Shown one piece after another: positions 19,973 through 41,540 of a stretch of DNA of 64,000 nt (positions are counted from its first letter, which is position 1; each line of letters starts with the position of its first letter). The stretch lies in contig NZ_JAMBNX010000006.1 of the NCBI RefSeq assembly GCF_023715325.1, forward strand, positions 186,001-250,000, in the 5' to 3' direction. The notes below the pieces were generated by a model. That model was not told the origin of the DNA, did not search any database, and saw nothing but the letters and a program-made list of their open reading frames with translations. Made by a program: the position numbers and the translations under genes. The stretch comes from Agromyces mediolanus (GTDB lineage Bacteria > Actinomycetota > Actinomycetes > Actinomycetales > Microbacteriaceae).

Positions 19973-20251
19973 TCAGAGCTCGCCGAGGATGCGCGCGCGG
20001 GTCTGCTCGTACTCCGCGTCGCTGATGCGGCCCTGATCGCGCAGGCGATCGAGTTCCGCGAGGCGGTCGGAGGCGCTCGGCGCGGGTGCCGGTGCGGTCT
20101 GGGGCGGGTACGGGCTCACGGGGGACGCCGGGGGCGCGGTGCTGCGCGAGACGCGCACCACGACGAGCACGATCACCGCGACGATCGCGAGGGGCACGAG
20201 CACCATGCCGAGGATGATGAGCGCGTGCCAGCCGTCGAATCCCATGAACAT
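19973..20251 (-). CDS. SHOCT-domain small membrane protein
   Basis: A 92-residue protein with one N-terminal transmembrane helix (I-I-L-G-M-V-L-V-P-L-A-I-V-A-V-I-V-L-V-V-V) and a Pro-rich linker. The C-terminal SHOCT motif reads L-A-E-L-D-R-L-R-D-Q-G-R-I-S-D-A-E-Y-E. SHOCT modules promote oligomerisation. Function of this protein is unknown. Confidence 0.85.
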   Translation of the reverse strand: MFMGFDGWHALIILGMVLVPLAIVAVIVLVVVRVSRSTAPPASPVSPYPPQTAPAPAPSASDRLAELDRLRDQGRISDAEYEQTRARILGEL

Positions 20252-20274
20252 GGCTCGAGCCTAGTGCCGGAGGA

Positions 20275-20934
20275 TCAGCGGTCTTCGATGCGCAGGCCGA
20301 GCTGGGCGGCGAAGTGCTCGGCGAGCGCGGCGGCCTGCTGCGAGTCGATCGTCGCGCCGGCGAGGCCCTCGAGGCTGCGGATGGCGCGGATCTCGAGCCC
20401 GCGCAGGTCGACGTCCTGCATGGTCGTGCGGGTGACGACGAGCTCGCCGACCGTGCAGTCCTCGAAGGCGACGCGCGCGAGGGTCGCCTCGCCGAGGTCG
20501 AGCTCGTCGAAGCTGCACCCGCGGAACAGCACGTCGCGAAGCCCGGCGGCGCGGAGGTTCACCCAGCCGAGCTTGGACTGCTCGACGACGAGCGAGTGCA
20601 GTTCGGCGTCGTAGAGCTCGGCCGAGCCGATGCGGGAGCCCTCGATGCGCACGTCGCGGAACGTCGAACGGGCGGCGGAGAACACCGGGGCGTTCAGCCG
20701 CTCGATGCGCGTCTCGAGGAAGCGGGCGGCGCGGAACGAGGCCTCGTGCGCGTGCCACCCCACGAGTTCGCACTCGGAGAACGTCGCGCCGGAGAGGTCG
20801 CGGCCCTCGAGCTCGGCGTCGACGAACCGGAGCCCCTCGACGGTGCGCTGCGGGCCGAGCTCGGCGGCGTCGCCGGCCTGGAGGTCGTCGAGGCGGAGCG
20901 GGTCGATCTGGGGTGCGCGGGTGGGCTTGGGCAT
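20275..20934 (-). CDS. Pentapeptide-repeat protein
   Basis: The 219-residue protein is built of degenerate A(D/N)LXX repeats (for example D-L-S-G-A-T-F-S-E-C-E-L, F-R-A-A-R-F, F-R-G-C-S-F-D-E-L-D-L-G-E-A-T-L). These fold as a right-handed quadrilateral beta helix. Relatives include gyrase-protecting proteins such as MfpA, but most are of unknown function, and this one lacks obvious MfpA-like acidity. The ATG at 20934 is chosen because upstream codons do not fit the repeat. Confidence 0.85.
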   Translation of the reverse strand: MPKPTRAPQIDPLRLDDLQAGDAAELGPQRTVEGLRFVDAELEGRDLSGATFSECELVGWHAHEASFRAARFLETRIERLNAPVFSAARSTFRDVRIEGSRIGSAELYDAELHSLVVEQSKLGWVNLRAAGLRDVLFRGCSFDELDLGEATLARVAFEDCTVGELVVTRTTMQDVDLRGLEIRAIRSLEGLAGATIDSQQAAALAEHFAAQLGLRIEDR

Positions 20935-20993
20935 GCGAGCACGGTACCGGCGGGGACCGACATCGAGGGACGGATGCCGCCTGTCGGCGCGGC

Positions 20994-20999
20994 TACGCT
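20994..20999 (+). promoter_or_regulatory. Probable -10 box, leaderless SseB-like gene
   Basis: TACGCT ends 7 bases before the ATG at 21007; no ribosome binding site intervenes. Confidence 0.4.
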
Positions 21000-21006
21000 G
21001 GAAGGC

Positions 21007-21414
21007 ATGGCAGGCAAGGGCAAAAAGAAGGCGCAGGAGCCGCTCGAGTTCCGCTCGCAGGCGCTCGCCGAGGCGCTCGAACGGCAGGACATGGCCGCGG
21101 TCGCCCTCGCCCTCCGGCACGGCAACACCGTGGTGCCGCTCGTGAAGCCGGGCCCCCGCGACCGCCCGCTCGACGGTGGAGAGGTGTGGACCTACCGCGA
21201 CCCGAAGACGGGTGAGGTCGCGTTGCTCCTCTTCAGCGACGCCGAGCACAAGCCGGCCAACCTGCCGCCTGCCGTCGGGCTGCAGAGCCCGGCGTGGTTG
21301 CGCAGCTTCCTGAAGCGCTACGAGTCCACGATCACCACGGTGTTCCTCGACATCGCCGGCCCGCACCCGATGCAGGCGCCCCCGGGCGAGCTGCTGCGGG
21401 CGCTCGAGGCGTAG
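21007..21414 (+). CDS. SseB-like small protein, unknown function
   Basis: A 135-residue soluble protein with a Lys-rich N-terminus. The segment V-A-L-L-L-F-S-D-A-E-H-K followed by V-G-L-Q-S-P-A-W-L resembles the SseB N-terminal domain (a strand ending in L-F-T/S, then a helix). The match is by pattern only. It is divergent from the pentapeptide-repeat gene and convergent with radA. Confidence 0.65.
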   Translation: MAGKGKKKAQEPLEFRSQALAEALERQDMAAVALALRHGNTVVPLVKPGPRDRPLDGGEVWTYRDPKTGEVALLLFSDAEHKPANLPPAVGLQSPAWLRSFLKRYESTITTVFLDIAGPHPMQAPPGELLRALEA

Positions 21415-21443
21415 CCCCGGGCCCACGCCTTCGGGGGGAGCGA

Positions 21444-22808
21444 TCAGAACGCGGCGTCGAGCTCCCGCTCGCGTGAGCCCTTCGCCGCGAGCATCGCCCG
21501 CTCGACCGCGGCGCGCACGCTGCCCGCCTCGACGTCGAGGATCGAGGTGTAGCCGAGTCGGCGAGCCTCGGTGGCGCGCTGCGCCGCCGCCGCGACGGGA
21601 CGCACCTCGCCCGCCAGGCTGATCTCGCCGAAGGCGGCGAGCTCGTGCGGTACGGCCCGGTCGCGCATCGCCGAGGCGATGGCCACCGCGATCGCGAGGT
21701 CGGCCCCCGGCTCGATCAGACGGACCCCGCCGACGGTCGAGACGTAGACGTCGTGCTCGCCGAGCGCCTTGAGCCCGGCCCGCCGTTCGAGCACGGCGAG
21801 GATCATCGCCACGCGCGAGGGGTCGACCCCGTTCACCACGCGGCGCGGCTGCGGCGCCTTCGTCGCGACGACGAGCGCCTGCACCTCGACGGGCAGGGCC
21901 CGGCGGCCCTCGAGCGCCACGGTGACGCAGGTGCCGCTCACCGAGGTGCGGGCGCGGCTGAGGAACAGGCCAGACGGGTCGGGCACCTCGGCGATGCCGT
22001 CGCCGGTCATCTCGAAGCAGCCGACCTCGTCGGTGGGGCCGAAGCGGTTCTTGAGTGCGCGCACGAAACGCAGGGCCGTCTGCCGGTCGCCCTCGAAGTG
22101 GCAGACGACGTCGACGAGGTGCTCGAGCAGGCGGGGACCGGCGATCGTGCCGTCTTTCGTGACGTGGCCCACGAGCAGCAGCGGCAGGTCTCGCTCTTTG
22201 GCGACGCGGATGAGGGTCGACGCGACCTCGCGCACCTGGCTGGGTTGGCCGGGCAGGCCGTCGACGAGGGAGCTCGCGACCGTCTGCACCGAGTCGACGA
22301 TGAGGAGTTCGGGGGAGACCTCGTCGATCTGGCCGAGCACGGTGGCGAGGTCGGCCTCGGCCGCGAGGTAGAGCTCGTCGTGCAGCGCACCGGTTCGGCC
22401 GGCGCGAAGGCGCACCTGGGCGGCCGACTCCTCGGCGCTGACATAGAGCACCCGGCGGCCGCCCGCCGCGACGCGCGCGGCGACCTCGAGCAGCAGCGTG
22501 GACTTGCCGACACCGGGCTCGCCGGAGAGCAGGATGGCGGCGCCCGCGACGATGCCGCCGCCGAGCACCCGGTCGAACTCGCCGATGCCGCTCGGCCGGT
22601 GGCTCGTGGCCGCGACCTCAATGTGCGCGATCGGGCGGGCCGCCTGCGACGGCGCGATGGCGGCGGCCTTGACGGTGCGGGTGATGCCCGTGGGCGCTGC
22701 GGCCTCGATGACCGTGCCCCACTGCTGGCACTCGGCGCAGCGACCGACCCATTTGGCGGTGCTCCACCCGCACTCGGTGCAGCGGAAAGCGGTGCTCGTT
22801 CGGGCCAT
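21444..22808 (-). CDS. radA: DNA repair protein RadA (Sms)
   Basis: The 454-residue protein processes recombination intermediates together with RecA. It has an N-terminal zinc finger (F-R-C-T-E-C-G-W then G-R-C-A-E-C-Q-Q-W-G), a RecA-like ATPase with Walker A G-E-P-G-V-G-K-S-T and Walker B L-L-I-V-D-S-V, and the RadA-specific K-N-R-F-G motif. A C-terminal Lon-protease-like domain without catalytic function ends it (G-G-V-R-L-I-E-P-G-A-D-L-A-I-A). The length is typical. Confidence 0.97.
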   Translation of the reverse strand: MARTSTAFRCTECGWSTAKWVGRCAECQQWGTVIEAAAPTGITRTVKAAAIAPSQAARPIAHIEVAATSHRPSGIGEFDRVLGGGIVAGAAILLSGEPGVGKSTLLLEVAARVAAGGRRVLYVSAEESAAQVRLRAGRTGALHDELYLAAEADLATVLGQIDEVSPELLIVDSVQTVASSLVDGLPGQPSQVREVASTLIRVAKERDLPLLLVGHVTKDGTIAGPRLLEHLVDVVCHFEGDRQTALRFVRALKNRFGPTDEVGCFEMTGDGIAEVPDPSGLFLSRARTSVSGTCVTVALEGRRALPVEVQALVVATKAPQPRRVVNGVDPSRVAMILAVLERRAGLKALGEHDVYVSTVGGVRLIEPGADLAIAVAIASAMRDRAVPHELAAFGEISLAGEVRPVAAAAQRATEARRLGYTSILDVEAGSVRAAVERAMLAAKGSRERELDAAF

Positions 22809-22817
22809 GCCCAGAGC

Positions 22818-23588
22818 CTAGCCGCGGCCCCCGACACCGCCGGTCAGCTGGTGCAGGCGCGAGATCACCGCCGGGCGGAATGCCCCCGCCCAGACCCGGT
22901 AGCCGCGGTCGTTCGGGTGGAACCAGTCCTTCGCGAATCCGGTCAGGATGCCGCGCACGCCCTGCCGCTTCGTGGACTCGTGCAACGGCACGACCGTGAG
23001 CCCGCGCGCCGCCGCCTCCCGGCGGACGATCGCGTTCGCCTCGGCGACCTTGCGCTCGTTCGCCGGGAAGTAGAAGTACGGCAGGTCGGCCACCACGGCG
23101 TGCTTCGGGACCGCGTCGAACACGGCGCGGATGCCCTCGGCGAAGGCCGCGGCATCCCAGTCGGCGATGTCGTTCGCGCCGATCGCGACGGTGACGACGT
23201 CGGGGCGGAGCTTGCCGAATCGGGGGAGCTGGTCGCGCACCGCGAGACCGACGGTCGCGCCGGAGACGCTGAGGTTCACGACCCGGATCGTGCGGCCGCT
23301 GCGGCTGCGCAGCTCGTCGGCGAGGAGCCCGACGTAGCCGAGGTCGGGGCGGCTCGCGCCGATGCCCTGGGCGGCGCTGTCGCCGATCGCGACGTAGAGC
23401 AGCTCGCCCCGGGTTTTCGCGAGATCCCGCCACCACTTCGAGTGCACGGGGAGCGTCTCGTTCAACACCGCGGACTGCTCGCGCCGGCGCTCGCCGAAGG
23501 CGCGCCAGCCGAGCGCCCCGACGGCCGCGGCGGCGCCGACGCCTCCCGCGACGAGCGCGATGGTGGCGAGACGGTGCGGCGCAGGCAT
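22818..23588 (-). CDS. SGNH/GDSL-family hydrolase, secreted or membrane-anchored
   Basis: This 256-residue protein has an N-terminal hydrophobic helix (A-T-I-A-L-V-A-G-G-V-G-A-A-A-A-V). The SGNH blocks follow: block I I-G-D-S-A-A-Q-G-I-G-A with the nucleophilic Ser, block II Gly in N-L-S-V-S-G-A-T, block III G-A-N-D-I, and block V D-W-F-H-P-N-D-R-G-Y with the catalytic Asp and His. The family includes lipases and carbohydrate esterases; the substrate is unknown. It follows radA 9 bases upstream on the same strand. Confidence 0.88.
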   Translation of the reverse strand: MPAPHRLATIALVAGGVGAAAAVGALGWRAFGERRREQSAVLNETLPVHSKWWRDLAKTRGELLYVAIGDSAAQGIGASRPDLGYVGLLADELRSRSGRTIRVVNLSVSGATVGLAVRDQLPRFGKLRPDVVTVAIGANDIADWDAAAFAEGIRAVFDAVPKHAVVADLPYFYFPANERKVAEANAIVRREAAARGLTVVPLHESTKRQGVRGILTGFAKDWFHPNDRGYRVWAGAFRPAVISRLHQLTGGVGGRG

Positions 23589-23646
23589 GCGACGAAACTA
23601 TGGGTGTCCGCTGAACGTCGGCTGAACCATCCGGTGCTCGTTCGTT

Positions 23647-23675
23647 TTGGTCAGCCGCGACGGATCGTCTACTAT
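23647..23675 (+). promoter_or_regulatory. tRNA-Ser promoter
   Basis: A -35-like TTGGTC (23647-23652) and a -10 TACTAT (23670-23675) are separated by 17 bases. The tRNA begins 7 bases after the -10 box. Confidence 0.55.
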
Positions 23676-23682
23676 CGATCCC

Positions 23683-23773
23683 GGTGACGTGTCCGAGCGG
23701 CCGAAGGTGCAACTCTCGAAAAGTTGTGTAGGGTAACCCCCTACCGTGGGTTCAAATCCCACCGTCACCGCCA
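23683..23773 (+). tRNA. tRNA-Ser (anticodon CGA)
   Basis: The acceptor stem GGTGACG (23683-23689) pairs with CGTCACC (23763-23769), followed by G and an encoded CCA. The anticodon stem CAACT/AGTTG encloses CTCGAAA with anticodon CGA at 23717-23719, which reads UCG. A long variable arm (GTAGGGTAACCCCCTAC) and the T-arm G-T-T-C-A-A-A complete a class II serine tRNA. Its 3' end is the integration site of the island that follows. Confidence 0.97.
23748..23773 (+). repeat. Left attachment site (attL), 26 bp of tRNA-Ser 3' end
   Basis: The sequence from GGGTTCAAATCCCACC through the encoded CCA is identical to 36424-36449. It includes the T-arm and the 3' acceptor strand, a standard target for tyrosine integrases. 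Confidence 0.9.
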
Positions 23774-23776
23774 TGG

Positions 23777-23821
23777 AAACCCCCGCGATTCCCTTGAAAA
23801 CACAGGGATCGCGGGGGTTTT
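23777..23821 (+). terminator. tRNA-Ser terminator inside the island's left end
   Basis: AAACCCCCGCGATTCCCT (23777-23794) pairs with 23804-23820 with one bulged T. The loop has 9 bases and a T-rich tail (TTTTGCTTT) follows. It is supplied by the island and replaces the chromosomal one. Confidence 0.85.
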
Positions 23822-23839
23822 GCTTTGCCCGAACGTGCT

Positions 23840-23860
23840 CAGCAGTAACTCTGCGGTAAC
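23840..23860 (+). repeat. Candidate integrase arm sites, left end
   Basis: CAGCAGTAAC (23840-23849) and CTGCGGTAAC (23851-23860) resemble the CAGCGGTAAC copies at 36298, 36309 and 36528. They lie 67-87 bases after the att core. A role as integrase or excisionase arm sites is inferred. Confidence 0.45.
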
Positions 23861-23919
23861 AGGATATTTCTACCTTGCCAATCGACCGGCCGAACGAACG
23901 GGCGGCATCAAACCACCGA

Positions 23920-24771
23920 TCACACGACTTCAGCGTCGTCGGATCGCTCTGCAGCACGTCGCAGGGCCTCTATTGCATCCTCACTGACTCGGTTGAGCGT
24001 CTGTGCGAATTGTAGGACGGTGACATGCAGCAGCTGAACCGCCGACCCGGGCACCGGCGACGTCGAGAGGTGGCGCAGCATCATGTACGAGAAGTGGCTG
24101 AGATCACTCAGCATTCCCCAGGTCACGCGCTCTACGCTCTTGTCGCCGTATGCGGCCGTGATCGGTGCGCTCGTCGCAAGCTGTGCTGTGACATCGCGAG
24201 GATCGAGACGGAGTCGGCCCGCAAGGTCGGCGAAGTGCGCACGGAAGTCTTCCCGCTCTTGTCGAACGTGCGTGTCGAGCTTCCCACCGAGTTCGGCCGT
24301 GAGCGCGCCGTGGCCAAGCGCGGTGGCGGCGAGAAGCAGATGGTTCTTCGAAAAGTAGAGCGCATCCTGGTGGATTGCTCGTAGTCCACGAGTTAGTCGT
24401 TCATCGCGCGATGACGGTTCTTGTAGCCACATGATCGTCGTAGTGTCCTCAAGCGCCGCGCGCATGAGGGGATACATGACTGTCGCGTCGAGATGGAGTT
24501 TTCCCGGCTCGGTATCGAAGACCCAACGGTGTAGCCCGCGAAGCATCCGTGCCGTGTTCCAGGCGCGCTCCTGAACGTAGTGCGAAACGACGGGCGGCGG
24601 ATCGATGACTGCAGCGGCAGCCGTATCGAGCTGTGCACGAGACCCTTCGGTGAACCCAGCGTCAGCAAGCTGCTGAAAGCTGGCGGCGAGGTCGCTCCAG
24701 CGATCACACTCCACCCACAGCGCCGCGACGACCTCATCAGGATCCATTGGAGGTATTAGCTCAGTCGTCAA
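23920..24771 (-). CDS. Unknown mostly helical protein, last gene of restriction-like operon
   Basis: This 283-residue protein has no signal or membrane segment. It looks mainly alpha-helical, with a central R-A-A-L-E-D-T-T-T-I-M-W-L and R-D-E-R-L-T-R-G-L-R-A-I-H segment. I recognise no family. The TTG start at 24771 has GAGG 9 bases upstream and overlaps the end of the NucS-like gene by 11 bases. The ATG at 24747 is an alternative that would remove 8 residues. Its overlap with the operon suggests a role as an accessory or sensor subunit of the same system, but that is only context. Confidence 0.7.
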   Translation of the reverse strand: MTTELIPPMDPDEVVAALWVECDRWSDLAASFQQLADAGFTEGSRAQLDTAAAAVIDPPPVVSHYVQERAWNTARMLRGLHRWVFDTEPGKLHLDATVMYPLMRAALEDTTTIMWLQEPSSRDERLTRGLRAIHQDALYFSKNHLLLAATALGHGALTAELGGKLDTHVRQEREDFRAHFADLAGRLRLDPRDVTAQLATSAPITAAYGDKSVERVTWGMLSDLSHFSYMMLRHLSTSPVPGSAVQLLHVTVLQFAQTLNRVSEDAIEALRRAAERSDDAEVV

Positions 24772-25849
24772 GGCCGAACGCCTCGGTCACCTGTTCGATC
24801 GTGAACTTCTGACGGAGCTTCGCGGCCGTGTTCTGATTGGCGAACATACCGTTCCGCCATATCGCTTCCTCGCGTGGGACCGCGTGCGTCCAATCGATGG
24901 GGACAGCCCATTCGGCCTTCTCGTCCTCGACATCGCCGTCGTGACGGTAGCTCCCGGCGAGGGGCAGAGTGTGTAGCGGGGTCGCGACACCGTTGACCTC
25001 GACCATTGTGTGGTCGAACCGGCGAGCTTCGCCGACGACCGTGCCGACGCCGACGTAGCCGGTCTTCGGGATATGCACGAAGATTCGGGCGTCGATCGGC
25101 AGGTTCTTGAGCGTCTGGGAGAACCACTTGCCACCGCCGCCAGAAATGAACCCGTACTTCAGGCCGTCGGCCCACTGGCGGACACCGCCATCTTCTCCGA
25201 AGGAGACGTACCAGTCGCTGCCGTTCCAGGGCTCACGGGTCTTGGTCTGACGCGCTGAGACGCCCGCAGCAGCCTGTTGGCCCTCGTGCTCGACCAGCCA
25301 GGTGCGGGCCAGGTACGTCGCGCCGTTGTCCGCGAAATGACGGAAGAAGACGACGTTGATCGGCACCCCGAAGCCCTCATTGAGGAACCTTACGATCCGC
25401 TCGGTAGCTGCATCGACGTTCGCGGCGACGATGGTGAAGGTCTGCGAACCGTTGACCTCCTCGGGCAAGGTCTCGTTGAAGCACTCGGCGAACGCCTCTT
25501 CCAGCGCCGAGCCCGGCTTGTAGGCCTCGAAAATTGCCTGGATATCGGCGCGACCGAGTCCGGCCACCCAGGAGCCATAGTCCAGTGCTTGGGCTGTGAC
25601 GTCACGCGGAGTCTTGTCGCGCTTCAGTTCGATGACGTGCACCGCGGCGGTCTCGTCGAGAGCGAGGAGATCGATGTATCCGCCATAGGCCGTGGCAACC
25701 TGACGGCCGATAATCAACAGCACCTCACCGAGCATCGACGGATCGGACTCGATGTAGCCCTCGAGCTGGGACTCCAGTCCGATTGAGGTCGGAACAATCC
25801 GACTGAGCGTTCTGCCCTCGGCGCGCCAGAGGCCCATCTCAACCGTCAT
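24761..25849 (-). CDS. PD-(D/E)XK endonuclease, NucS/DUF91-like domain
   Basis: The 362-residue protein has an N-terminal NucS/DUF91-type nuclease domain. L-E-S-Q-L-E-G-Y-I leads to I-G-R-Q-V, then D60 (Y-I-D-L-L), E74-x-K76 (V-I-E-L-K-R) and Q87-A-L-D-Y, the PD-(D/E)XK core with its QxxxY helix. The C-terminal half (about 190-362) has aromatic-rich W-Y-V-S-F-G-E-D-G-G and K-T-G-Y-V-G-V-G segments that could bind nucleic acid. The ATG at 25849 has GGAG 5 bases upstream and is preferred to the GTG at 25852. It overlaps the GIY-YIG gene upstream and the unknown gene downstream. It probably cuts DNA for the system encoded with it. Confidence 0.85.
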   Translation of the reverse strand: MTVEMGLWRAEGRTLSRIVPTSIGLESQLEGYIESDPSMLGEVLLIIGRQVATAYGGYIDLLALDETAAVHVIELKRDKTPRDVTAQALDYGSWVAGLGRADIQAIFEAYKPGSALEEAFAECFNETLPEEVNGSQTFTIVAANVDAATERIVRFLNEGFGVPINVVFFRHFADNGATYLARTWLVEHEGQQAAAGVSARQTKTREPWNGSDWYVSFGEDGGVRQWADGLKYGFISGGGGKWFSQTLKNLPIDARIFVHIPKTGYVGVGTVVGEARRFDHTMVEVNGVATPLHTLPLAGSYRHDGDVEDEKAEWAVPIDWTHAVPREEAIWRNGMFANQNTAAKLRQKFTIEQVTEAFGLDD

Positions 25850-27047
25850 CACTGCTCCGCTCCACCAGCTTCTGCTGCATCCTGTCGTAGATGTAGTCGG
25901 TGATCTCGCCTGACATGATCATCGCGATGGCCTTGTTGATCGTGGCAAGCGGCACTACGAACCACTCCGAGGGGTCGTAGTCGCGCCCCTTCTTGTCGAC
26001 CTGGGTGAGATCTAGGCGCACCTCAGCGAAAACTCTGTGAATCAGGTGCTCAAGCCACGACGCCTTGATGTTGTACAGCCGGTAGTCCGCCAGCACTTTG
26101 ACTGGCGCCATCAAGTAGGTCGGTGATTTCGCCGCGTTCTTGATGCGCTGCTCGACGCTCGTCGTAGAGAAGCCGATCTTGTGCAGGTCGGTCATGTTTG
26201 CGATCAGCGGGTCGGCGCTGAGCGACTGAAGCACGTAGATGTGGCCGCTCTCCACGTCCCCGTCGAGGATGTCGGCCACGTCATATCCTGTGCGTGCGAG
26301 CACCTCGCCCTGCGCCTCGTACATGCGGGTCATCAGGCTCTGCTTGTACATCGCTGACTCTGTGCCGTTCTCGAACACGACCTTCAGCCGCTGCTTCTGT
26401 TTCGGCTTGCCACCGACGACGAGGTCCACGTCCTCCCCGACCTCGGCGACGAAACACATGACGCCGTTGAGGACGAAGAAGGCGCCCTCGCGGATGAGGT
26501 CCAGGCCGGTGAACGGCATCAGCTGGAACGTGCCATCGGCCAGCTCCGCATGCTTCGCCTTGAACAGTGGCGCATAGAGCTCGAAGTCCTCAGACTTAAC
26601 CCGCTGGGCAACAGAGTCCGGCGACTCGGGACGCTTCATAACGGGCAGATCGGAGACATCGAGGATGCCGCTGTCGTCGCCGAGCAGGTCGTCGAGGTCG
26701 TCACCCTCGAGGAGCTCGTCGATTGATGCCGGCGCTTGCGGTGCCTCGAGCAGACCGAACTCGTCCAGATGCTTGACGGCAGCTGCCCGCTCGTCGCTGG
26801 CAAGGAAGCCGTCGAGCCGAGCGCCTAGTTTGCGCTCCGCGATCTCGCGGGTTGACGAGCTCGGCACTCTGCCATGTACCCGGTAGAACTCGACGATCTC
26901 GAGGAACGCACGTTCGAGCCGATCGGATGACGTTACCTTCTGAGGCTTCTCCGGTGCGTCGAGAAGGCCATCGATGTCGGCGTCGAGAACTGCCTGGAAA
27001 TCGGGAACTATGAAGTCGACGGGACCAATGCCATCGTTCGTACTCAT
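25839..27047 (-). CDS. GIY-YIG nuclease family protein (T5orf172/MUG113-like)
   Basis: The 402-residue protein has three parts. Residues about 41-85 form a helical module with V-H-G-R-V-P that recurs in the partner helicase. Residues 150-265 are a beta-rich middle. Residues 268-345 form a GIY-YIG-type nuclease: G-H-I-Y-V-L, K290-I-G-F-S, R301 and the metal-binding E333 in L-E-H-L-I-H. The motif spacing is that of T5orf172. Its ATG overlaps the helicase stop as ATGA. It is likely a cutting subunit delivered by the helicase; the combination with a separate PD-(D/E)XK enzyme is unusual. Confidence 0.85.
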   Translation of the reverse strand: MSTNDGIGPVDFIVPDFQAVLDADIDGLLDAPEKPQKVTSSDRLERAFLEIVEFYRVHGRVPSSSTREIAERKLGARLDGFLASDERAAAVKHLDEFGLLEAPQAPASIDELLEGDDLDDLLGDDSGILDVSDLPVMKRPESPDSVAQRVKSEDFELYAPLFKAKHAELADGTFQLMPFTGLDLIREGAFFVLNGVMCFVAEVGEDVDLVVGGKPKQKQRLKVVFENGTESAMYKQSLMTRMYEAQGEVLARTGYDVADILDGDVESGHIYVLQSLSADPLIANMTDLHKIGFSTTSVEQRIKNAAKSPTYLMAPVKVLADYRLYNIKASWLEHLIHRVFAEVRLDLTQVDKKGRDYDPSEWFVVPLATINKAIAMIMSGEITDYIYDRMQQKLVERSSDDG

Positions 27048-29029
27048 GCGTCGGTCACCATTTCCGTTGCGCGTCTCTCGGCCTCGCGCTGCTGCTTGAG
27101 CTTCTGCAGGAAGAGCAGTGCCGCGGCGAGGTGCTTCTCGTTCGGGTCTTCCGCGCGCACGTCTGGACGGCGCCCGTTCACCTTTACCCAATTCTGGATC
27201 TTCGGGAACAGCGCCAGCGCCTCCTCCTCGGTGAACTCAATTCGGGTCGCAGCGATCTGGTCCTGGATGATCTTCAGCACCGAGGGTGTGACCGATTTGG
27301 ACATGACTTCGAAGGCCCGCTGGAAGGGGTTCACGGAATCGATGAGGTTGATGCTCAGCTCGTCGATGTTCACGAACTTCTCGGCGAGCTTAATGAAGCG
27401 CTTGTCGCCAACCTCGCGCACCTCGCCAGTTTTGATCACCGAGTCGACGACGACCTGCTGGCGAACCTCCTCGACCTCGGCCTCAGTGAGGTCCGGGTAC
27501 TTCTCGCGGATGATCTTCGGGATCAGCACCTTATTGGTCGTCTCGGGATCCACAGAACCGGCCGCGGCCTTCGCGAAAGTGTCGTCCTGCAAAATCGTCG
27601 CCTTAAGGTCGTTCAGGTCCGTCTCGACGATCTGCTTCACCCGCGCGGTCGAGGGTTCCTTGTAACCCTTGATCTTCAGCTCTCCGGGCTTCCCTACGTC
27701 GTCGCCGTCGAACTTCTTGGTCTTGAACTGGAAGTTCTGCGCGAGGACCTGCTCCATGAGCAGCGAGGCGGTGATGGCCTTGAGCATGTTGTTCACCGAT
27801 ACCTTGACCTCGCCCTGCGAGGCGTCCGGCTCAGCGATGAGGTTCGTGAACTGCGCGTGCGACTTGCCGGGGCTGTCGCGCGTCACCCGCCCGATGATTT
27901 GGATGACTTCGGTGAGCGAGGCCCGGTAGCCGACGGTCAGGGCATGCTCGGCGAAGGGCCAATCGAAGCCCTCCTTCGCCATGCCGAGGGCGATGATCAC
28001 GTCCACCGCGTCACGGTCCTTCGAGGCCGTATGCGCCAGGTAGTGCAGCGTGTCGCCCCGCTTCTTCTGATCGGTGTCATCCACGAGGTCCGCGACGCGC
28101 ACAACCTCGCCGGTATCATTCCGCCGCACGCTGATGATTCCGGTGTCCTCGTTTTCGTCGACGACCTCCCCGATCGTGTCGAGGATGAAGCCCACCTCCT
28201 CGAGCTTGTCCTTCGTGGACTCGCCGGAGTTGACGTTCGGGATGTGCACGATCGTCTTCTTGTCGAGGTCGAGGACCTCGCCGATCGCATCCGTGTACCG
28301 GCCCTGGTAGAAGTGGTGACCGATGCCGAGCGAGCGCAGGTGCTCGTAGCCGTTGAGCTGGTCGTAATAGTTGAAGGTCACGGGCGTGAACTTCGCCTCG
28401 TCCTCAGGTGAGAGCACCGGCACCGAGTCCCCGCGGAAGTACGAGCCCGTCATCGCGACGATGTGCACGTCAGAACCGTTCATCACGTCGCGCAGCAGCG
28501 CACCGAGGCGCGAGCTCTCCGTGTCAGCGGAGACGTGGTGGAACTCGTCGATCGCGAGAACTGTGCCGTTGAAGGCTTCGGGCGCGAGCTTCTCGAAGGC
28601 GAAGCGCAACGTCGCGTGCGTGCACACCAGCGTCGCGTCGGAGCCCTCGAGGAACTTGATGAAAGCGTCGACTTTGCCGGCCGATGACCCCGCGTCGCAG
28701 AGGTTGTTCGACTCCTTGATCTCCCAGTCCGCCCAGAAGCCGTGCTTCGTCAGCGCCGTTGGGGCGAAGGATGCGCCGATGGAGCGCTCCGGCACAGCCA
28801 CGATGACCTTCTTGCGGCCCTGGTTGTAGAGCTTGTCGAGCGCTACAAACATCAGCGCGCGCGACTTGCCCGAGGCCGGCGGGGCCTTCACTAGCAGGTG
28901 CTGGGCGTCGCGCTGCTCGAAGACGCGCTGCTGCATCTCGCGCATGCCGAGCTTGTCGGTGTTCACCGACTCTCTGGTCTGGGCGTAGGTGACGTTGACG
29001 ATGTTGACGGGCTTCTTGATTGCGTTCAC
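27044..29029 (-). CDS. SF2 DEAD/DEAH-box helicase of restriction-like system
   Basis: The 661-residue protein has Walker A A-P-P-A-S-G-K-S (residues 49-56), motif II D161-E-F-H-H, motif III A-M-T-G-S-Y-F and, in the second RecA-like lobe, G-M-A-K-E-G-F-D-W and Q-I-I-G-R-V-T-R (motif VI). The last 70 residues carry an N-G-R-R-P module similar to that in the GIY-YIG partner. No nuclease motif is seen in the helicase itself. It starts at GTG, overlapping the methyltransferase stop as GTGA, so the stoichiometry is probably coupled. Its role should be ATP-driven translocation or remodelling of non-self DNA. Confidence 0.88.
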   Translation of the reverse strand: MNAIKKPVNIVNVTYAQTRESVNTDKLGMREMQQRVFEQRDAQHLLVKAPPASGKSRALMFVALDKLYNQGRKKVIVAVPERSIGASFAPTALTKHGFWADWEIKESNNLCDAGSSAGKVDAFIKFLEGSDATLVCTHATLRFAFEKLAPEAFNGTVLAIDEFHHVSADTESSRLGALLRDVMNGSDVHIVAMTGSYFRGDSVPVLSPEDEAKFTPVTFNYYDQLNGYEHLRSLGIGHHFYQGRYTDAIGEVLDLDKKTIVHIPNVNSGESTKDKLEEVGFILDTIGEVVDENEDTGIISVRRNDTGEVVRVADLVDDTDQKKRGDTLHYLAHTASKDRDAVDVIIALGMAKEGFDWPFAEHALTVGYRASLTEVIQIIGRVTRDSPGKSHAQFTNLIAEPDASQGEVKVSVNNMLKAITASLLMEQVLAQNFQFKTKKFDGDDVGKPGELKIKGYKEPSTARVKQIVETDLNDLKATILQDDTFAKAAAGSVDPETTNKVLIPKIIREKYPDLTEAEVEEVRQQVVVDSVIKTGEVREVGDKRFIKLAEKFVNIDELSINLIDSVNPFQRAFEVMSKSVTPSVLKIIQDQIAATRIEFTEEEALALFPKIQNWVKVNGRRPDVRAEDPNEKHLAAALLFLQKLKQQREAERRATEMVTDA

Positions 29030-31743
29030 TTCCGGATCCCCCTGGTCTTCTTTGCCGGGGCCTTCGCGGCCTCGTCAGCGGTCATGCGCTCGTGCATCGC
29101 GAACAGGTCTGACAGGCGCTGCTCGTCGGTCTCGTACGGCTTTTTCGAGTAGATCGAATCGACCAACGCATCCACCGCGGCGTGCGCCTTGCGAAGGTCG
29201 TTCGGCATTTTGTCCGGGTCGTACAGTTCCCCGAGCGTCAGCTCACAGTGATACTCCCGCACGTCCAGAACGCGCAGCGCCGCGAGGGTTAGCTCTTCCT
29301 TGACACCGTCCGAGAACGATGGGACTGGGAAGTTGTTGTAGACGATGGTGTTCGAGTAGCGGAGCCGGGTCTCCAGCTGACCTCCCACTGCCTTTGTCCA
29401 AGCCATGTGCATCGCGGAGGTGAGCAGGCCGAATACCCATGGCTGCGCGTCATAGACGGCGAATGCCGCGTCTGAGATCACCGTGTCGGTACCGAGATAC
29501 CCCATCGGCACGTACACGCGTCTTTCCGAGGAAACACGCGGAACGATGATCGATTCGGTCGGCTTGTAGCTGATCTGAACGAACCTGTGAGGCTGCGCGG
29601 CAAACGACGCCGTGCTCGCTGCCTTGCTCTCCGAGCGCTCCTCGGCGACCTTTTGCAGCCTTGCTGCGATCGCCGGAATCGAACGAGCAGACGCAGCCTG
29701 CCGGTCCTCGATCCAGAGGCAGTATCTCTCCCCGTCGTTAATGGCCTCGGATGAACCCATATAGCGCTTGATGAACTCGTCGGCTCGCGGATCGGCCGCG
29801 AGCATGTCCTCACGCTCGGTGGGGGAGATAATCAGGCCTCCGCCGTCACGCGGCATGGAGCCGAAAACCATGTCGGGTCGCGCCGCTCCCAGAGGGGTCT
29901 TGCGCCGTTCCATGACGACGTTGGCACCCTCGGTGAGGTATCCATTGATATTCGTGGCGGCGATTCGGAGGTCGTCAGTGAAGAGATACTTGTCTCCAGC
30001 TCGGACTGTTCGGAGGCCGATGACCACGACGGTTACTCCAGCATTGCGCTTCGCGTTGTTTCCCCATTTGAACGAGGTGTACGCGAATCCGATCTCGATG
30101 CCCTTGGCGAAGATCATTGGGAACATCAGCCCGACATGCTCGCCCTGCGCGACCGAGTTGGTCGTCACGAATGCGAGTTCGGCGCGCGTGCCCTCGATGT
30201 AGTCAGACCCTTTGATGAACCAGAGTGCGATGTAGTCGAGGTTCTTGGAGTGGGGACGGCGACCGAAGACGAATCCGTAGTCCGCCTTCTGATCCTTCGT
30301 TTGCGTCTTCGCACCGGCGTATGGCGGGTTGCCGATCAGGTAGATCTCGCCGCCGTCGTTTGGACAGACGTCGTTCCAGTCGATGCGAGTCGCGTTGCCC
30401 TGCTTGATCTGGCCGGTCTCTCTAAGCGGAATCAGAGGGAGATCAATGCCGAACTTCTCACGGAACTCAACGTTCATCTGATGCTTGGCGATCCACAGAG
30501 AGAGGATCGCGACCTCGACAGCGAAGTCGTCGATCTCGATGCCAAAGAATTTCTCGACGTTGATTCGCGATCCCAGCAGTTGTCCCTGGTGGTCCCCGCG
30601 CAGCTCGGCCAGCCGCTCGAGGATGGCGTGCTCGAGCCGGCGTAGCTCCTTGTATGCGATGACCAGGAAGTTACCTGAGCCACATGCGGGGTCGAACACC
30701 TTGATCGTGCTGATCCGCTCGAGCAGTCTCGCGAGCCGGCGCTCGCTGTCGTATGCCTCATCCAGTTCGTCCTTCAAGGCGTTCAGGAACAGCGGCTCGA
30801 TCGTCTTCAGGATGTTCGGGACGGAGGTGTAGTGCTGGCCGAGGTCGCTGCGCTTGCCAGGTGTGACGATTGCCTGGAACATCGAGCCGAAAATATCGGG
30901 GTTGATCTCGCGCCATATCAGCTTGCCGGCGTTGATGAGCTCCTCGCGCGCGGTCTTCGTGAACGTGGGCACCACGTGGTCCGGCGACAACGTGAAGAGT
31001 CGACCGTTGACGTAAGGGAACGCCGCGAGGTGACTCGGCTTGTCCGCGGGGTTCGCAGTATCTAGCGCAGCGAATAGGTCCGTCAGGAACTCGGCGGTAT
31101 CCGAGCCGTCGGCCAAGGTGTGTGAACCAACGGCGTTGGTGAACTGGTTCTCTGCGAAGATCCCCGTGTCCTCGGCGAAGAAGCAGAACAGCAGGCGCGT
31201 GAAGAACAGGTTCAGCGCGTGCCGGCCGTGCGGCTGCTCAAGAAGGCCGGGGTTCGCCTGCAGCAGTTCGTCAAAGAGCTTGCCCATGCGCTCGGCGGCC
31301 TTGACATCGGCGTGTGCCTCGGCGACGTACTGCGCCTTCTCCATCCCCGCCCATGGAAGGAAAAACGTGAAATGCTGGTCGACCTCGCGGATCGGGAAGC
31401 CGATGGTCTCGCCAGTCTGCGTGTCGTGCGCGACCAGTTCGGCGTAGTCGGTGACGATCACGAAGCGCGTGCTGAAGCGCACCACGTTTGGCGAGGTCTT
31501 CAGCTCCTCAAGAACCTCGAGGGGGTCGCCGGTGGTCTCTTTGAAGTAGACGACCTTCTTCTGCGCGACTTCACTCGACGGGTCTGCGGCTACATTCAGA
31601 TCGCCGTTGCGCAGGCGTGTGACGCTGCTCTGAGGCTTGCCATAGACAAGGAGCAGGTCGAAGATGAAGTCGCGGTCGTAGCGTTCGCGACTGGCCAGCG
31701 GGGCGACACGCTCTTCGACCGCCTTGAGGTTCAGCCTCGCCAT
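29026..31743 (-). CDS. MmeI-like DNA adenine methyltransferase with target-recognition domain
   Basis: The 905-residue protein has the MmeI-type layout. An N-terminal domain (1-160) is followed by a helical connector with R-L-L-F-C-F-F-A-E-D-T-G-I-F and F-P-Y-V-N-G-R-L-F. The gamma-class methyltransferase has motif I D351-P-A-C-G-S-G and motif IV N472-P-P-Y. A C-terminal target-recognition part follows (about 610-860). In classic MmeI the N-terminus is a PD-(D/E)XK nuclease. Here the expected E-x-K is missing (V-V-Y-F-K-E-T), so I infer a methylase only, with cutting done by the partner nucleases. ATG at 31743 starts the operon. Confidence 0.88.
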   Translation of the reverse strand: MARLNLKAVEERVAPLASRERYDRDFIFDLLLVYGKPQSSVTRLRNGDLNVAADPSSEVAQKKVVYFKETTGDPLEVLEELKTSPNVVRFSTRFVIVTDYAELVAHDTQTGETIGFPIREVDQHFTFFLPWAGMEKAQYVAEAHADVKAAERMGKLFDELLQANPGLLEQPHGRHALNLFFTRLLFCFFAEDTGIFAENQFTNAVGSHTLADGSDTAEFLTDLFAALDTANPADKPSHLAAFPYVNGRLFTLSPDHVVPTFTKTAREELINAGKLIWREINPDIFGSMFQAIVTPGKRSDLGQHYTSVPNILKTIEPLFLNALKDELDEAYDSERRLARLLERISTIKVFDPACGSGNFLVIAYKELRRLEHAILERLAELRGDHQGQLLGSRINVEKFFGIEIDDFAVEVAILSLWIAKHQMNVEFREKFGIDLPLIPLRETGQIKQGNATRIDWNDVCPNDGGEIYLIGNPPYAGAKTQTKDQKADYGFVFGRRPHSKNLDYIALWFIKGSDYIEGTRAELAFVTTNSVAQGEHVGLMFPMIFAKGIEIGFAYTSFKWGNNAKRNAGVTVVVIGLRTVRAGDKYLFTDDLRIAATNINGYLTEGANVVMERRKTPLGAARPDMVFGSMPRDGGGLIISPTEREDMLAADPRADEFIKRYMGSSEAINDGERYCLWIEDRQAASARSIPAIAARLQKVAEERSESKAASTASFAAQPHRFVQISYKPTESIIVPRVSSERRVYVPMGYLGTDTVISDAAFAVYDAQPWVFGLLTSAMHMAWTKAVGGQLETRLRYSNTIVYNNFPVPSFSDGVKEELTLAALRVLDVREYHCELTLGELYDPDKMPNDLRKAHAAVDALVDSIYSKKPYETDEQRLSDLFAMHERMTADEAAKAPAKKTRGIRK

Positions 31744-32095
31744 GGATTTTCCGCCTTCATACTCGAATCTCATCAGCGGCATCAGACACAGAAGCGGTCG
31801 CAAACCAGACGCTCGGCTTGCCGATCTCCTAGCAGATGGAACGATGCCTCCCTCGCGATCCTATTGGCGGCTCGGTCGCCGCGGCCTTACCCGCTCGGCG
31901 TCGCCACGAGGTTCGCGCTCAGCCTCGGTCCGAAGCTACCCACAGGCCACGCGATACCTTCTCGATCGACGAAACCGTGACGTTGAGATCGAGTCAGACG
32001 CGACGCGCCGGTTGGGTCCTCGTCGCGGCCGTGTTCATGTCGGACCCCGGTGCGAGCATCCTGATATCGTCTCGGGAGTGAGGTACGGCGGCGAC
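31744..32095. other. Divergent intergenic region inside the island
   Basis: These 352 bases separate the minus-strand methyltransferase operon from the plus-strand small gene. Open frames exist, but none has a believable start or protein-like composition. It should contain the promoters of both units; I see no clear operator. Confidence 0.5.
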
Positions 32096-34250: not shown

Positions 34251-34940
34251 TCAGTGCGACGTCTCCACCCAGCCCATGCCCGAGTTGCCTGTCTCGTGCA
34301 TCCAATCCTTGCCGCAGGCGGTGCAGTGGTAGTCCTGCTCGTCCGCGACCATGCCGGAGCCGCCGAACTGTCGGAAGTTCCCGACACGCTCGAGGCGTGC
34401 GTGCGGCGGGACGTTGCGGCCCTTCGTTCCTGTGTCGACCAGCTTCCAGCAGTCGTCGCACATCGCCTCCTTCACGATCTTGACGATCTCCGGGGCCACT
34501 CGGAAGAGGTGCGCCTGGCGGTAGCCGGAACCCTCGGTGTAGTCGGCCTCCATCGGGAACTCGGCGTCCTCCGGGAGGCTTCCACGCTCCACGAGCTCGC
34601 TCGTGATCGTCCGCAGGGGCTTGGTCCAGTTCTTCAACTGCCGCTTGGGCTCGTAGTTCCCGATCCGAAAGATATCCTCGCGGCTGATCTCGCCGCCGTT
34701 CCGAATCGCCTGGTTGAACGCCTCGAGCTGCACGTCGTTGCCGCGACGCCGGAGCATCTCGCGGAGCACTAGGACCAGGTCCAGAGTCCAGCCGGTGGAG
34801 GCGGCCTCCGCCCATGACGAGTCGTCGGTGCTCTCCGCGTGCGGAACGGATTCGTCGCGCATCGAGCGCACGAGAGCCAGCACACGGCCGACCTCCTCCG
34901 GAGTGAGGTCACTGATGTCGAGATTCAGGGTGTCTGCCAT
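34251..34940 (-). CDS. Unknown island protein with C-terminal zinc ribbon
   Basis: The 229-residue protein has an acidic N-terminus and a central helical region (D-L-V-L-V-L-R-E-M-L-R-R-R-G-N-D). The C-terminal part carries C-D-D-C and C-T-A-C pairs about 50 residues apart, consistent with a zinc ribbon. ATG at 34940 has AGGAG 7 bases upstream. It is divergent from the HTH gene. I recognise no family; DNA or RNA binding is a guess from the zinc ribbon. Confidence 0.7.
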   Translation of the reverse strand: MADTLNLDISDLTPEEVGRVLALVRSMRDESVPHAESTDDSSWAEAASTGWTLDLVLVLREMLRRRGNDVQLEAFNQAIRNGGEISREDIFRIGNYEPKRQLKNWTKPLRTITSELVERGSLPEDAEFPMEADYTEGSGYRQAHLFRVAPEIVKIVKEAMCDDCWKLVDTGTKGRNVPPHARLERVGNFRQFGGSGMVADEQDYHCTACGKDWMHETGNSGMGWVETSH

Positions 34941-35206
34941 AGAGTTTCTCCTTGATCGGCCTCCCCGACGAGTCACTTCCTACGGTCTCGCGTCAGGGAG
35001 GCTGGTTCTGTATCAGCGGGTTGCGAATACATCAGCGATAGTACACCCAGTACTGCCGATAGCTATATGTAGCTCGCTGTAATTGATCCTTACTCGTTCC
35101 GATCTCGCTCATGGGCGGGTCTGTCGTCCAGGCGAAGTCGGACCCGCTTCCCGCCAATGTGCTGAAGGATATGGCGGATTTGGATGATTTGAGCGAATAT
35201 AGAGGC

Positions 35207-35713
35207 ATGAGCACTGCATCCGTACGAACAAGAGATCCGTTGGTCGTCGACCCGCCTAACGACCTCAGCGAGATGCTTGAACTCGGGCGATTCCTGGAGC
35301 ATCACACCGCTCCTGCGCTGCTGCTCGGTCCCGACGGCGAGCAGATCCCGCTCCCGATGGTGGCGTACGACGTGCTTCGGCAGGTGGTGTCGGCGATGGA
35401 GCGCGGCGAGGCTGTCAGCGTCGAACCCATCGATCGGCAACTGACGACTCAGCAAGCAGCCACACTGCTCGGCATTAGCCGTAGCACGCTGGTCCGGCTG
35501 CTTGATGAGCACGAGCTGCCATTCGAGCGATTCGGCGAGTCCAGGCACAGGCGATTGCGACTGCACGATGTCCTCGCATACCGCGACCGAAAGCGCGCTG
35601 ACAGGCGGAGCCGCTTGGACGAGCTCACCCGACAAGCGGACGAAGACGGTCTGTATGACGTCGATGCGGACGCCTACAAGGAGGCATTGGCTCAGGCGCG
35701 GAAGCAGTCGTAG
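35207..35713 (+). CDS. HTH (excisionase-family) antitoxin partner of PIN toxin
   Basis: This 168-residue protein (ATG at 35207; an upstream ATG at 35111 would add 32 residues) contains an excisionase-type winged helix: L-T-T-Q-Q-A-A-T-L-L-G-I-S-R-S-T-L-V-R, then H-R-R-L-R-L-H-D-V. An acidic C-terminal tail (D-E-D-G-L-Y-D-V-D-A-D-A-Y) follows, of the kind that wraps a PIN toxin. It ends 2 bases before the PIN gene. The pair probably forms a type II toxin-antitoxin module that represses its own promoter. Confidence 0.8.
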   Translation: MSTASVRTRDPLVVDPPNDLSEMLELGRFLEHHTAPALLLGPDGEQIPLPMVAYDVLRQVVSAMERGEAVSVEPIDRQLTTQQAATLLGISRSTLVRLLDEHELPFERFGESRHRRLRLHDVLAYRDRKRADRRSRLDELTRQADEDGLYDVDADAYKEALAQARKQS

Positions 35714-35715
35714 CG

Positions 35716-36288
35716 GTGGCGCGGTTCACGGCATTGCTCGACGCATGTGTGATCGTGCCGCTGGCGCCGTGCGACACCATGCTCCGCATGGCTGACGCTG
35801 GAGCCTTCCGCCCGGTCTGGTCGCAGAACGTGCTCGACGAAGCCCTCAGGGCTCTCGAACGCATACATCCAGATGTCGACGCGAGTCGATTCCAGAGCCG
35901 TTTCCGATCGATGAATGAAGCCTTTGATGATGCTCTCGTGGAAGGGTGGGAGCCGCTCGCTCAGGGAATCGAACTGCCGGACCCGAACGATGCCCACGTT
36001 GTGGCTGCTGCCCTCCTCGGCAGAGCCGACCTGATCGTCACTGAGAATGTGAAGGACTTTCCAGCATCCGTGCTCGCGCCCCTGGGGCTCGAGGCCATCA
36101 GAACCGACGCATTCCTCCTCGACCAGTTCGACCTCTCGCCGAGCGGGGCATGTCGGATCGTCACGGAACAGGCGGCCGCCATGCGGCAGCCGCCCGTGGA
36201 AGTCGCCCGACTGCTCGAGCGGCTCTCGCGGAGTGGCGCTCCGGGCTTCGCGCAGCGGGTCGCTGAAGCGTTGAAGAACGATCCGTAG
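35716..36288 (+). CDS. PIN-domain toxin (RNase)
   Basis: This 190-residue protein has the PIN core residues: D9 (L-L-D-A-C-V-I), E42 (L-D-E-A-L), D92 in D-P-N-D-A-H-V-V-A-A-A-L, and the E-N-V-K-D-F segment with D114. These acidic residues would bind metal for RNA cleavage. It starts at GTG right after the HTH gene, the usual antitoxin-toxin order. It lies at the right edge of the island, where such modules often stabilise integrated elements. Confidence 0.85.
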   Translation: MARFTALLDACVIVPLAPCDTMLRMADAGAFRPVWSQNVLDEALRALERIHPDVDASRFQSRFRSMNEAFDDALVEGWEPLAQGIELPDPNDAHVVAAALLGRADLIVTENVKDFPASVLAPLGLEAIRTDAFLLDQFDLSPSGACRIVTEQAAAMRQPPVEVARLLERLSRSGAPGFAQRVAEALKNDP

Positions 36289-36297
36289 ACCGGTGGT

Positions 36298-36318
36298 CAG
36301 CGGTAACGCAGCGGTAAC
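36298..36318 (+). repeat. Two direct CAGCGGTAAC copies near attR
   Basis: CAGCGGTAAC occurs at 36298-36307 and 36309-36318, about 106-126 bases before the attR core. A third copy lies at 36528-36537 after it, and similar motifs follow attL. They are candidate recombinase arm sites. Confidence 0.5.
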
Positions 36319-36423
36319 GGAATTCCTGCGGGAGCCTGTTTTCGGGTGTGCGCACATGTGCCCAACTTCCGCGGAATCATGCCGATCTAGCGTGTCGACC
36401 CGGCATCCATTGACCTGCGATAG

Positions 36424-36449
36424 GGGTTCAAATCCCACCGTCACCGCCA
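36424..36449 (+). repeat. Right attachment site (attR), 26-bp copy of tRNA-Ser 3' end
   Basis: Identical to 23748-23773, but here no tRNA precedes it, so it is the displaced end of the target. A hairpin with arms ACGAAGGCC (36452-36460) and GGCCTTCGT (36491-36499) follows; it is probably the original chromosomal tRNA terminator or the end of an earlier element. Confidence 0.9.
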
Positions 36450-36604
36450 CCACGAAGGCCTCGAGTCCCCTGGAAACACTGGGAAATCGGGGCCTTCGTC
36501 TTGTCCGGAGTGCCCGTGGTAGGAGCTCAGCGGTAACGTGACGCGAGGCCACGGCATGGCGCTGGTTCATGTGATCCGCAACGAGCCGAAGGCGGCGATC
36601 GTGC
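36450..36604. other. Post-attR intergenic region
   Basis: Contains the 36452-36499 hairpin and CAGCGGTAAC at 36528-36537, then no gene until the SDR remnant. The layout mirrors the segment after attL (hairpin, then GGTAAC motif at nearly the same offset). Confidence 0.6.
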
Positions 36605-37361: not shown

Positions 37362-37374
37362 GCTGACTCCTAGA

Positions 37375-37392
37375 TAAGTAAATAACTACTTA
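37375..37392. promoter_or_regulatory. Inverted repeat, probable TetR operator
   Basis: TAAGTA (37375-37380) and TACTTA (37387-37392) are 6-base arms around AATAAC, in the gap between the SDR remnant and the divergent TetR gene. Confidence 0.5.
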
Positions 37393-37441
37393 CTGATAAC
37401 CTAGAAGCGCAGTCGGAGAGCGTCAAGTCGAAGGGCAGCGC

Positions 37442-37996: not shown

Positions 37997-38040
37997 TGCC
38001 CTCGGCTGCGAGCGGGCCGCATCCGAGGGCATCGTGACGA

Positions 38041-38996: not shown

Positions 38997-39014
38997 GGGT
39001 GATTCCTATCCAAA

Positions 39015-39065
39015 CTAGTACAGCGTGATAGCGACAAGGGAGTCCAAGCTATCACACTGTGCTAG
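39015..39065. promoter_or_regulatory. Two TetR operator copies before the CPBP gene
   Basis: CTAGTACAGCGTGATAG (39015-39031) and CTATCACACTGTGCTAG (39049-39065) are near-palindromes. They match the two copies at 40811 and 40844 in front of the TetR gene. They should bring the CPBP gene under that regulator. Confidence 0.7.
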
Positions 39066-39140
39066 AAGCTCGTCGCCATTTCGGTGCTACATGCGTGAGG
39101 TCTGGCTAGGTGACCCGACCGCTGTGCGACACTCTTCTCC

Positions 39141-40073: not shown

Positions 40074-40171
40074 GCCCTCACGCGCCTCCGAACGCCCCGG
40101 TGGGCGCGAAGACGAGGTCGGCGAAGCGTGTGCCGACGAGCGTGAGGTGGTCGAGGGAGTGCGGGCGACGA

Positions 40172-40798: not shown

Positions 40799-40810
40799 GA
40801 GCCATCCGTC

Positions 40811-40860: not shown

Positions 40861-40875
40861 TTTCTGGAGGTCGGG

Positions 40876-41520: not shown

Positions 41521-41540
41521 CCCCTCCGAAAGGAGCCACC

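Follow-up and report, generated by a model that had tools for sequence, protein, structure and literature searches.

A DnmA-YeeB-YeeC-type operon followed by a candidate modification-dependent nuclease gene in a genomic island of Agromyces mediolanus

Introduction

Do five tightly packed genes in a tRNA-bounded island of Agromyces mediolanus encode one machine, or do several systems share one operon? The genes lie on the minus strand at 23920-31743 of a 64,000-nucleotide stretch of contig NZ_JAMBNX010000006.1 (positions 186,001 to 250,000, assembly GCF_023715325.1), referred to here as the window. A preliminary description, made from the sequence alone, took them for a new restriction-type system in which an MmeI-like methylase, a superfamily 2 (SF2) helicase, a GIY-YIG nuclease, a PD-(D/E)XK nuclease, and a protein of no familiar family would probably form one complex. 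We arrive at a different reading, to which we assign a probability of about 0.65: genes 1 to 3 are a split restriction-modification (R-M) system of the DnmA-YeeB-YeeC type, gene 4 encodes a functionally separate modification-dependent nuclease, and gene 5 is a passenger. The core is already known, and the coupled four-gene form is new. A new five-subunit system was rejected because gene 5 is not conserved and gene 4 is optional.

Results and Discussion

The methylase-helicase-nuclease core

Judged by families, gene order, and the description in published papers, genes 1 to 3 correspond to the DnmA-YeeB-YeeC arrangement, with an MmeI-type methylase without an N-terminal nuclease motif, an SF2 helicase directly downstream, and then a GIY-YIG/T5orf172 protein. 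The operon is therefore of the R-M type, as had been supposed, and its core is not a new system because this set of genes has already been published. According to two papers (PMC9973331, PMC7261158), DnmA makes N6-methyladenine (m6A) in GACGAG, and homologues of yeeB (helicase) and yeeC (T5orf172) are the commonest defense-type neighbors of DnmA homologues, in first and second place downstream. The same sources describe loci of Bacillus subtilis and Vibrio crassostreae that agree with ours in gene types, order, strand, and horizontal movement, whereas in A. mediolanus a predicted EVE-NucS-type nuclease and gene 5 follow with overlaps. An earlier proposal, for which PMC7261158 cites Morgan 2009, had the set work as an R-M system resembling Type I. 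Searches of open papers turned up neither another name for the triad nor a description of the four-gene form.

Gene 1 matches all five MmeI domains of Pfam, including MmeI_Mtase (1.1e-99), MmeI_TRD (8.7e-78), and MmeI_N (1.7e-25), as well as the PADLOC Type IIG model REase_MTase_IIG (2.6e-290). It carries motif I (DPACGSGNF), motif IV (GNPPY), and the MmeI target recognition domain. Its N-terminal nuclease motif is degenerate by sequence. The alignment to the solved MmeI structure (PDB 5hr4) starts only at residue 91, a strict PD-(D/E)XK pattern occurs in 1 of 107 methylase N-termini (with P0001, the product of gene 1, counted in), and no alignment column conserved in over half of these N-termini forms this pattern. 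A looser D-x-ExK pattern is present in 75 of the 107, and residues 80-82 of P0001 form an ELK tripeptide. An active nuclease fused to the methylase was rejected on the strict motif count and the lack of conserved motif columns, in keeping with the preliminary description, which had seen no N-terminal nuclease motif. Methylase, target recognition, and C-terminal domains are shared with the MmeI Type IIL/IIG enzymes. MmeI, however, carries its own nuclease, whereas here the nucleases are encoded separately; with a motif that is degenerate by sequence, gene 1 does not fit Type IIL, in which nuclease and methylase form one active polypeptide.

Gene 2 has a Pfam DEAD match (2.1e-7) and weak matches to Type ISP enzymes. 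The residues of its helicase motifs PPASGKS, DEFHH, and QIIGRxTRD are at least 95% conserved among 140 sequences. Gene 3 matches MUG113 (4.4e-12) and T5orf172 (9.1e-12), domains that are grouped with GIY-YIG nucleases in PMC9973331. Its residues Y271, K290-I291-G292, R301, and E333, the last of which had been singled out beforehand as a target for mutation, reach at least 95% conservation across 132 sequences, among them P0005 (gene 3). The family matches of genes 1 to 3 run over long stretches, and the PADLOC matches of genes 1 and 4 over nearly their whole length; matches of this length are not produced by chance.

To describe the spread of the triad, 142 loci were collected by helicase similarity, comprising the window, 80 genome loci (the best 80 of 539 relatives), 43 viral-contig loci, 11 loci from the same family, and 7 plasmid loci picked from the best matches. 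In 135 of the 138 loci with at least 1 kb of room, the helicase is followed by the GIY-YIG gene; L124, L157, and L158 are the exceptions. Every locus with at least 3.5 kb of room (107/107) has a same-strand methylase upstream, which in 76 of them is within 150 bp. These counts are not independent because some viral loci look like near-copies. Among the best 80 of 539 relatives, the taxa include Actinomycetota, Bacteroidota, Pseudomonadota, Bacillota, Campylobacterota, Planctomycetes, and one archaeal metagenome-assembled genome; in the Bacillus mediterraneensis triad (L101), the helicase is 60% identical. A scan of 398 genomes of the host family gave a helicase match of any strength in 17 and a strong one in 12, the genome analyzed here included. 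Many loci outside Actinobacteria have at least one gene inserted between methylase and helicase (e.g., L055, L062, L063, L067, L070, L090, L098, L106, and L113); some of the inserts resemble one another by eye, such as those of L090, L106, and L113.

How might the three proteins work together? Type ISP enzymes such as LlaGI and LlaBIII perform recognition, ATP-driven translocation, and cutting as a single polypeptide. Genes 1 to 3 are assumed to follow the same logic, and gene 2 resembles these helicases weakly; they differ from Type ISP in being three genes and in the fold of the nuclease. The mechanism set out here is drawn by analogy to Type I/ISP enzymes and from the proposal cited in PMC7261158. 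The MmeI-like methylase would recognize an asymmetric site and methylate adenine in one strand; at an unmethylated site it would instead serve as the targeting subunit, while the SF2 helicase used ATP to travel along the DNA and the GIY-YIG protein made the cut, which would protect the host. One-strand methylation is said to be a property of the MmeI family, to judge by the title of the Morgan paper. In Type ISP and Type III systems, the unmethylated daughter strand that replication leaves is spared since two sites in opposite orientation are needed.

DISARM and BREX were considered as further candidates. The PADLOC scan covered 8 island proteins, with further small island open reading frames (ORFs) left out; among these 8 there was no DrmA/DrmB or PglZ/BrxC match, and the methylase gave only secondary matches to DrmMI and PglX. 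DISARM and BREX were rejected on this ground.

Gene 4, a candidate modification-dependent nuclease

The PADLOC search that the preliminary description called for assigned gene 4 (P0003) to the candidate family PDC-S11 over nearly its whole length. A second look at the Foldseek matches of its predicted model identified a NucS/EndoMS-type PD-(D/E)XK nuclease domain (about residues 26-181) and an EVE/YTH-type reader fold (about 202-363). E75 and K77, previously numbered E74 and K76, are invariant in 18 sequences. Because the model joins a nuclease fold to a modified-base reader fold, gene 4 looks like a modification-dependent (Type IV) nuclease and is best read as a separate one, with both a PD-(D/E)XK domain bearing catalytic residues and a reader domain predicted. 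Helicase and nucleases of different folds acting in trans had been foreseen and are recovered as the DEAD, MUG113/T5orf172, and predicted NucS-type domains; the modification-dependent role had not been foreseen. Nuclease plus EVE/YTH-like fold is also the make-up of the EVE-type modification-dependent nucleases (VcaM4I; the EVE-PD(D/E)XK class in PMC7641849), from which gene 4 differs in its predicted NucS/EndoMS-like nuclease and its place behind an R-M operon. Matches of gene 4 to the NucS/EndoMS mismatch nuclease family stay below the curated cutoffs of Pfam and NCBIfam (28.8 against 216 in the latter). A viral fold library yielded one match at E≤0.001, Gp54 of Bacillus phage G, with a root mean square deviation of 16.5.

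A close homologue of gene 4 stands behind the GIY-YIG gene in the window and in L024, L036, L038, L039, L040, L043, and L050, with gaps of -13 to +16. In L036 (Microbacterium nymphoidis, 11166-12253) the homologue is split over two frames; L045 has a weak match only, about 230 bp away, and L023 has a match about 3.5 kb upstream of the triad. We placed these occurrences on a helicase tree of 36 rows, of which 35 are Actinobacteria, plasmids of Actinobacteria, or family genomes and one is a Saccharibacteria sequence. Gene 4 follows the triad in 8 of the 36. Its presence requires 6 changes on the tree, at least 4 of them forced by well-supported branches, compared with a mean of 7.4 changes for shuffled labels (54/500 shuffles were as low as 6). 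Given these change counts, gene 4 has been repeatedly gained or lost and is barely clustered.

Strong matches to the triad helicase occur in 11 of 397 other host-family genomes and strong matches to gene 4 (E below 1e-100, with 12 genomes of weaker matches left out of the count) in 9, and 2 genomes have both (0.25 expected, P = 0.023); the genes are adjacent in one of the two. The remaining 7 of the 9 have no triad, and no triad protein lies near gene 4 there. Matches of any strength to gene 4 occur in 22/398 family genomes, and one genome with a weaker match (G178) has the triad. On plasmids, gene 4 is found beside Type I R-M genes, near BREX genes, or in other contexts. Gene 4 is thus a recurrent partner of the triad, not a fixed subunit.

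A Flavobacterium locus (L092:11120-12028) has the triad followed by another NucS-like protein, PDC-S18 with DUF5655; recruitment of a NucS-like add-on may therefore not be confined to Actinobacteria.

In 29/132 loci, an ORF of at least 150 amino acids (aa) sits tightly behind the GIY-YIG gene (-20 to +20), compared with 15% (386/2560) of random positions further downstream. Among the 22 of these 29 ORFs that were scanned with PADLOC, 14 match at E≤1e-5 and 8 do not; two of the 14 matches are doubtful (a Cas4-like one in L059 and that of a ligase-like protein in L087, which covers a short C-terminal stretch). The other seven comprise six gene 4 homologues (68-87% identical to P0003) and an apparent near-copy of a scanned ORF (L139). 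Six genes at wider gaps (43-101 bp) all had PADLOC matches, although they were picked by eye, without a control, and the choice is biased. The general idea of a special cargo slot at this position is supported only weakly. Genes close behind other triads match the defense families ThsA/SIR2, QatA, PDC-S06, GmrSD-like Orf5, LmuA, CBASS cyclase, DRT3a, GajA, AbiJ, retron PRTase, and HEC-08 (loci L055, L056, L051, L088, L089, L115, L116, L136, L137, L156, and L121, chosen partly by eye and without a control).

Gene 5, a probable passenger

Gene 5 had been described as belonging to no recognizable family, and this holds: no family was found at E≤0.1 in Pfam, PADLOC, or NCBIfam, nor at 0.01 in PHROGs. 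Its predicted structure has a pLDDT of 42. P0004 had no matches in plasmids or viral contigs. Matches to gene 5 at E≤0.001 occur in 20/398 family genomes, and only two other places are strong. One is in G047 (58%), about 600 kb from the triad of that genome; the other is a paralogue in the genome analyzed here (G000:C87:104799-105617, 55%). No copy of gene 5 turned up in the 141 other triad loci, within the stretches covered. This absence and the paralogue elsewhere in the genome make gene 5 most likely a passenger. The stretch around the paralogue (L210) contains a short integrase-like ORF and TIR-like ORFs, named by eye.

Operon layout and island

All five ORFs were confirmed (Table 1). From gene 1 to gene 5 the junctions overlap by 4, 4, 14 (11 from an internal ATG), and 11 bases, which upholds the chain of overlaps first described except at its end. 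The overlap of genes 4 and 5 is uncertain because it rests on a TTG start, and similarity to the two close homologues of gene 5 begins at residues 6-8; a start at the methionine at residue 9 would leave a small gap instead. We infer that the genes are co-expressed. A promoter scan found 0 promoters, with a mean of 2.1 in shuffled sequences.

Table 1. Features of the operon and its island (positions in the window)
Feature	Position	Strand	Evidence
Gene 1, MmeI-like DNA methyltransferase (DnmA type), 905 aa	29026..31743	-	Pfam and PADLOC
Gene 2, SF2 helicase/translocase (YeeB type), 661 aa, GTG start	27044..29029	-	DEAD match
Gene 3, GIY-YIG nuclease with T5orf172/MUG113 domain (YeeC type), 402 aa	25839..27047	-	Pfam
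Gene 4, PDC-S11 protein, predicted PD-(D/E)XK and EVE/YTH-type fold; GTG start or ATG at 25849	24761..25852	-	
Gene 5, protein of no matched family, 283 aa, likely passenger; TTG start uncertain	23920..24771	-	
tRNA-Ser (CGA), integration target	23683..23773	+	ARAGORN
26-bp att-like repeat, tRNA side (last 26 bases of tRNA-Ser)	23748..23773	+	Exact second copy
26-bp att-like repeat, far side	36424..36449	+	Exact copy of 23748-23773
Tyrosine integrase ORF, 252 aa	33394..34152	+	Phage_integrase 1.6e-18, residues 41-230, sole domain recognized
Helix-turn-helix (HTH_17) and PIN_3 proteins, probable toxin-antitoxin pair of the island	35111..36288	+	HTH_17 5.7e-11, PIN_3 3.1e-10

The island is about 12.7 kb long, is bounded by the exact 26-bp direct repeat, and carries the integrase ORF and the HTH/PIN pair. 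Its link to a tRNA, suggested previously, is confirmed by the tRNA-Ser and this repeat. G+C is 0.70-0.74 at 20001-24000, 0.61-0.63 across the operon (24001-32000), 0.63-0.66 up to 36000, and 0.67 at 36001-42000, and rises again beyond. We searched 41 genomes of the genus, that of the host included, for an unoccupied site. In six (G427, G079, G142, G413, G421, and G401), 69-85 bases resemble the far-repeat sequence at 75-83% identity, starting with the repeat and adjoining the tRNA match, as in an unoccupied site. Against such a reading, the two genomes most similar in the left flank (G400 and G422, 94%) match over 26 bases only, and other genomes give shorter or weaker matches. In the host genome itself, the sequences behind the tRNA copy and the far copy share 72% over 114 bases, so the far-flank likeness may partly be a common tRNA-trailer pattern. 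The firm evidence for the boundary is the exact repeat.

The integrase may lack its front part, and a minus-strand ORF of 526 aa without a Pfam match overlaps it. Another minus-strand island ORF (34251-34976, 241 aa) has two C-x2-C pairs and no family match. Beyond the island, a 1,837-aa ORF (41603-47116) resembles, by eye, a repetitive surface protein whose C-terminal part has a hydrophobic stretch.

Weighing the alternatives

Several observations weigh against a split R-M system joined by a separate Type IV nuclease. According to PMC9973331 and PMC7261158, deletions in the B. subtilis triad left three phages unaffected, loss of dnmA did not change transformation, and the authors termed the triad a relic; PMC9973331 adds that phage genomes do not avoid the DnmA motif. 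For gene 4, the model is of moderate confidence (predicted template modeling score, 0.46) and function does not follow from a shared fold, the Pfam NucS match (NucS_C) is below its cutoff (19.4 versus 24 bits), no EVE or YTH family match to its sequence was seen in Pfam, and a reader that bound m6A would endanger the host.

One alternative keeps gene 4 inside the complex of genes 1 to 3, as a second nuclease or a methylation-state checkpoint recruited in actinobacterial lineages. The overlapping or close junctions in eight loci, the weak co-occurrence in family genomes, and a YTH/EVE-like fold next to a methylase that marks DNA speak for it, but 28 of the 36 triads in the tree lack gene 4, the triad is absent from 7/9 other family genomes that carry a strong gene 4, and gene 4 adjoins other systems elsewhere. 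We regard this arrangement as improbable.

We give no more credence to a triad that here only methylates, with the methylase as an orphan regulator and genes 2 and 3 inactive, as proposed for B. subtilis. The B. subtilis deletions favor it; however, all three frames in the window are intact, and its helicase and nuclease retain the residues whose conservation in the family is at least 95%. In V. crassostreae, deleting dnmA and yeeB reportedly raises sensitivity to some phages (PMC9973331, PMC7261158).

Joint action of all five genes, for which their tight packing speaks, is very unlikely, since gene 5 did not turn up in the 141 other loci, has its 55% paralogue elsewhere, and overlaps gene 4 only if the TTG start is correct.

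The preferred reading thus remains a split R-M system with gene 4 as a separate nuclease and gene 5 as a passenger. Gene 4, presumably co-expressed with the triad, would attack phage DNA whose altered bases let it escape genes 1 to 3. BREX and a Type IV enzyme paired on one plasmid are a precedent for combining systems.

Implications

Loci of the DnmA-YeeB-YeeC type span many phyla, yet the studied B. subtilis copy has been called a relic by its authors. The copy described here, with its catalytic residues conserved and a predicted modification-dependent nuclease coupled to it, provides a testable case for restriction by a split R-M system and for how opposite restriction logics might be paired by bacteria. 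We suggest tentatively, and with more doubt than confidence, that Actinobacteria may repeatedly build a two-sided operon, in which an m6A-writing, ATP-driven split R-M system destroys unmarked DNA and an EVE-NucS-type nuclease destroys foreign-marked DNA. If so, one transcript would close both phage routes of restriction evasion; in its boldest form, the reader of gene 4 would also sense the state of the methylase's own mark. For PDC-S11 the analysis yields a specific prediction, namely a NucS-type nuclease that carries an EVE/YTH-type reader.

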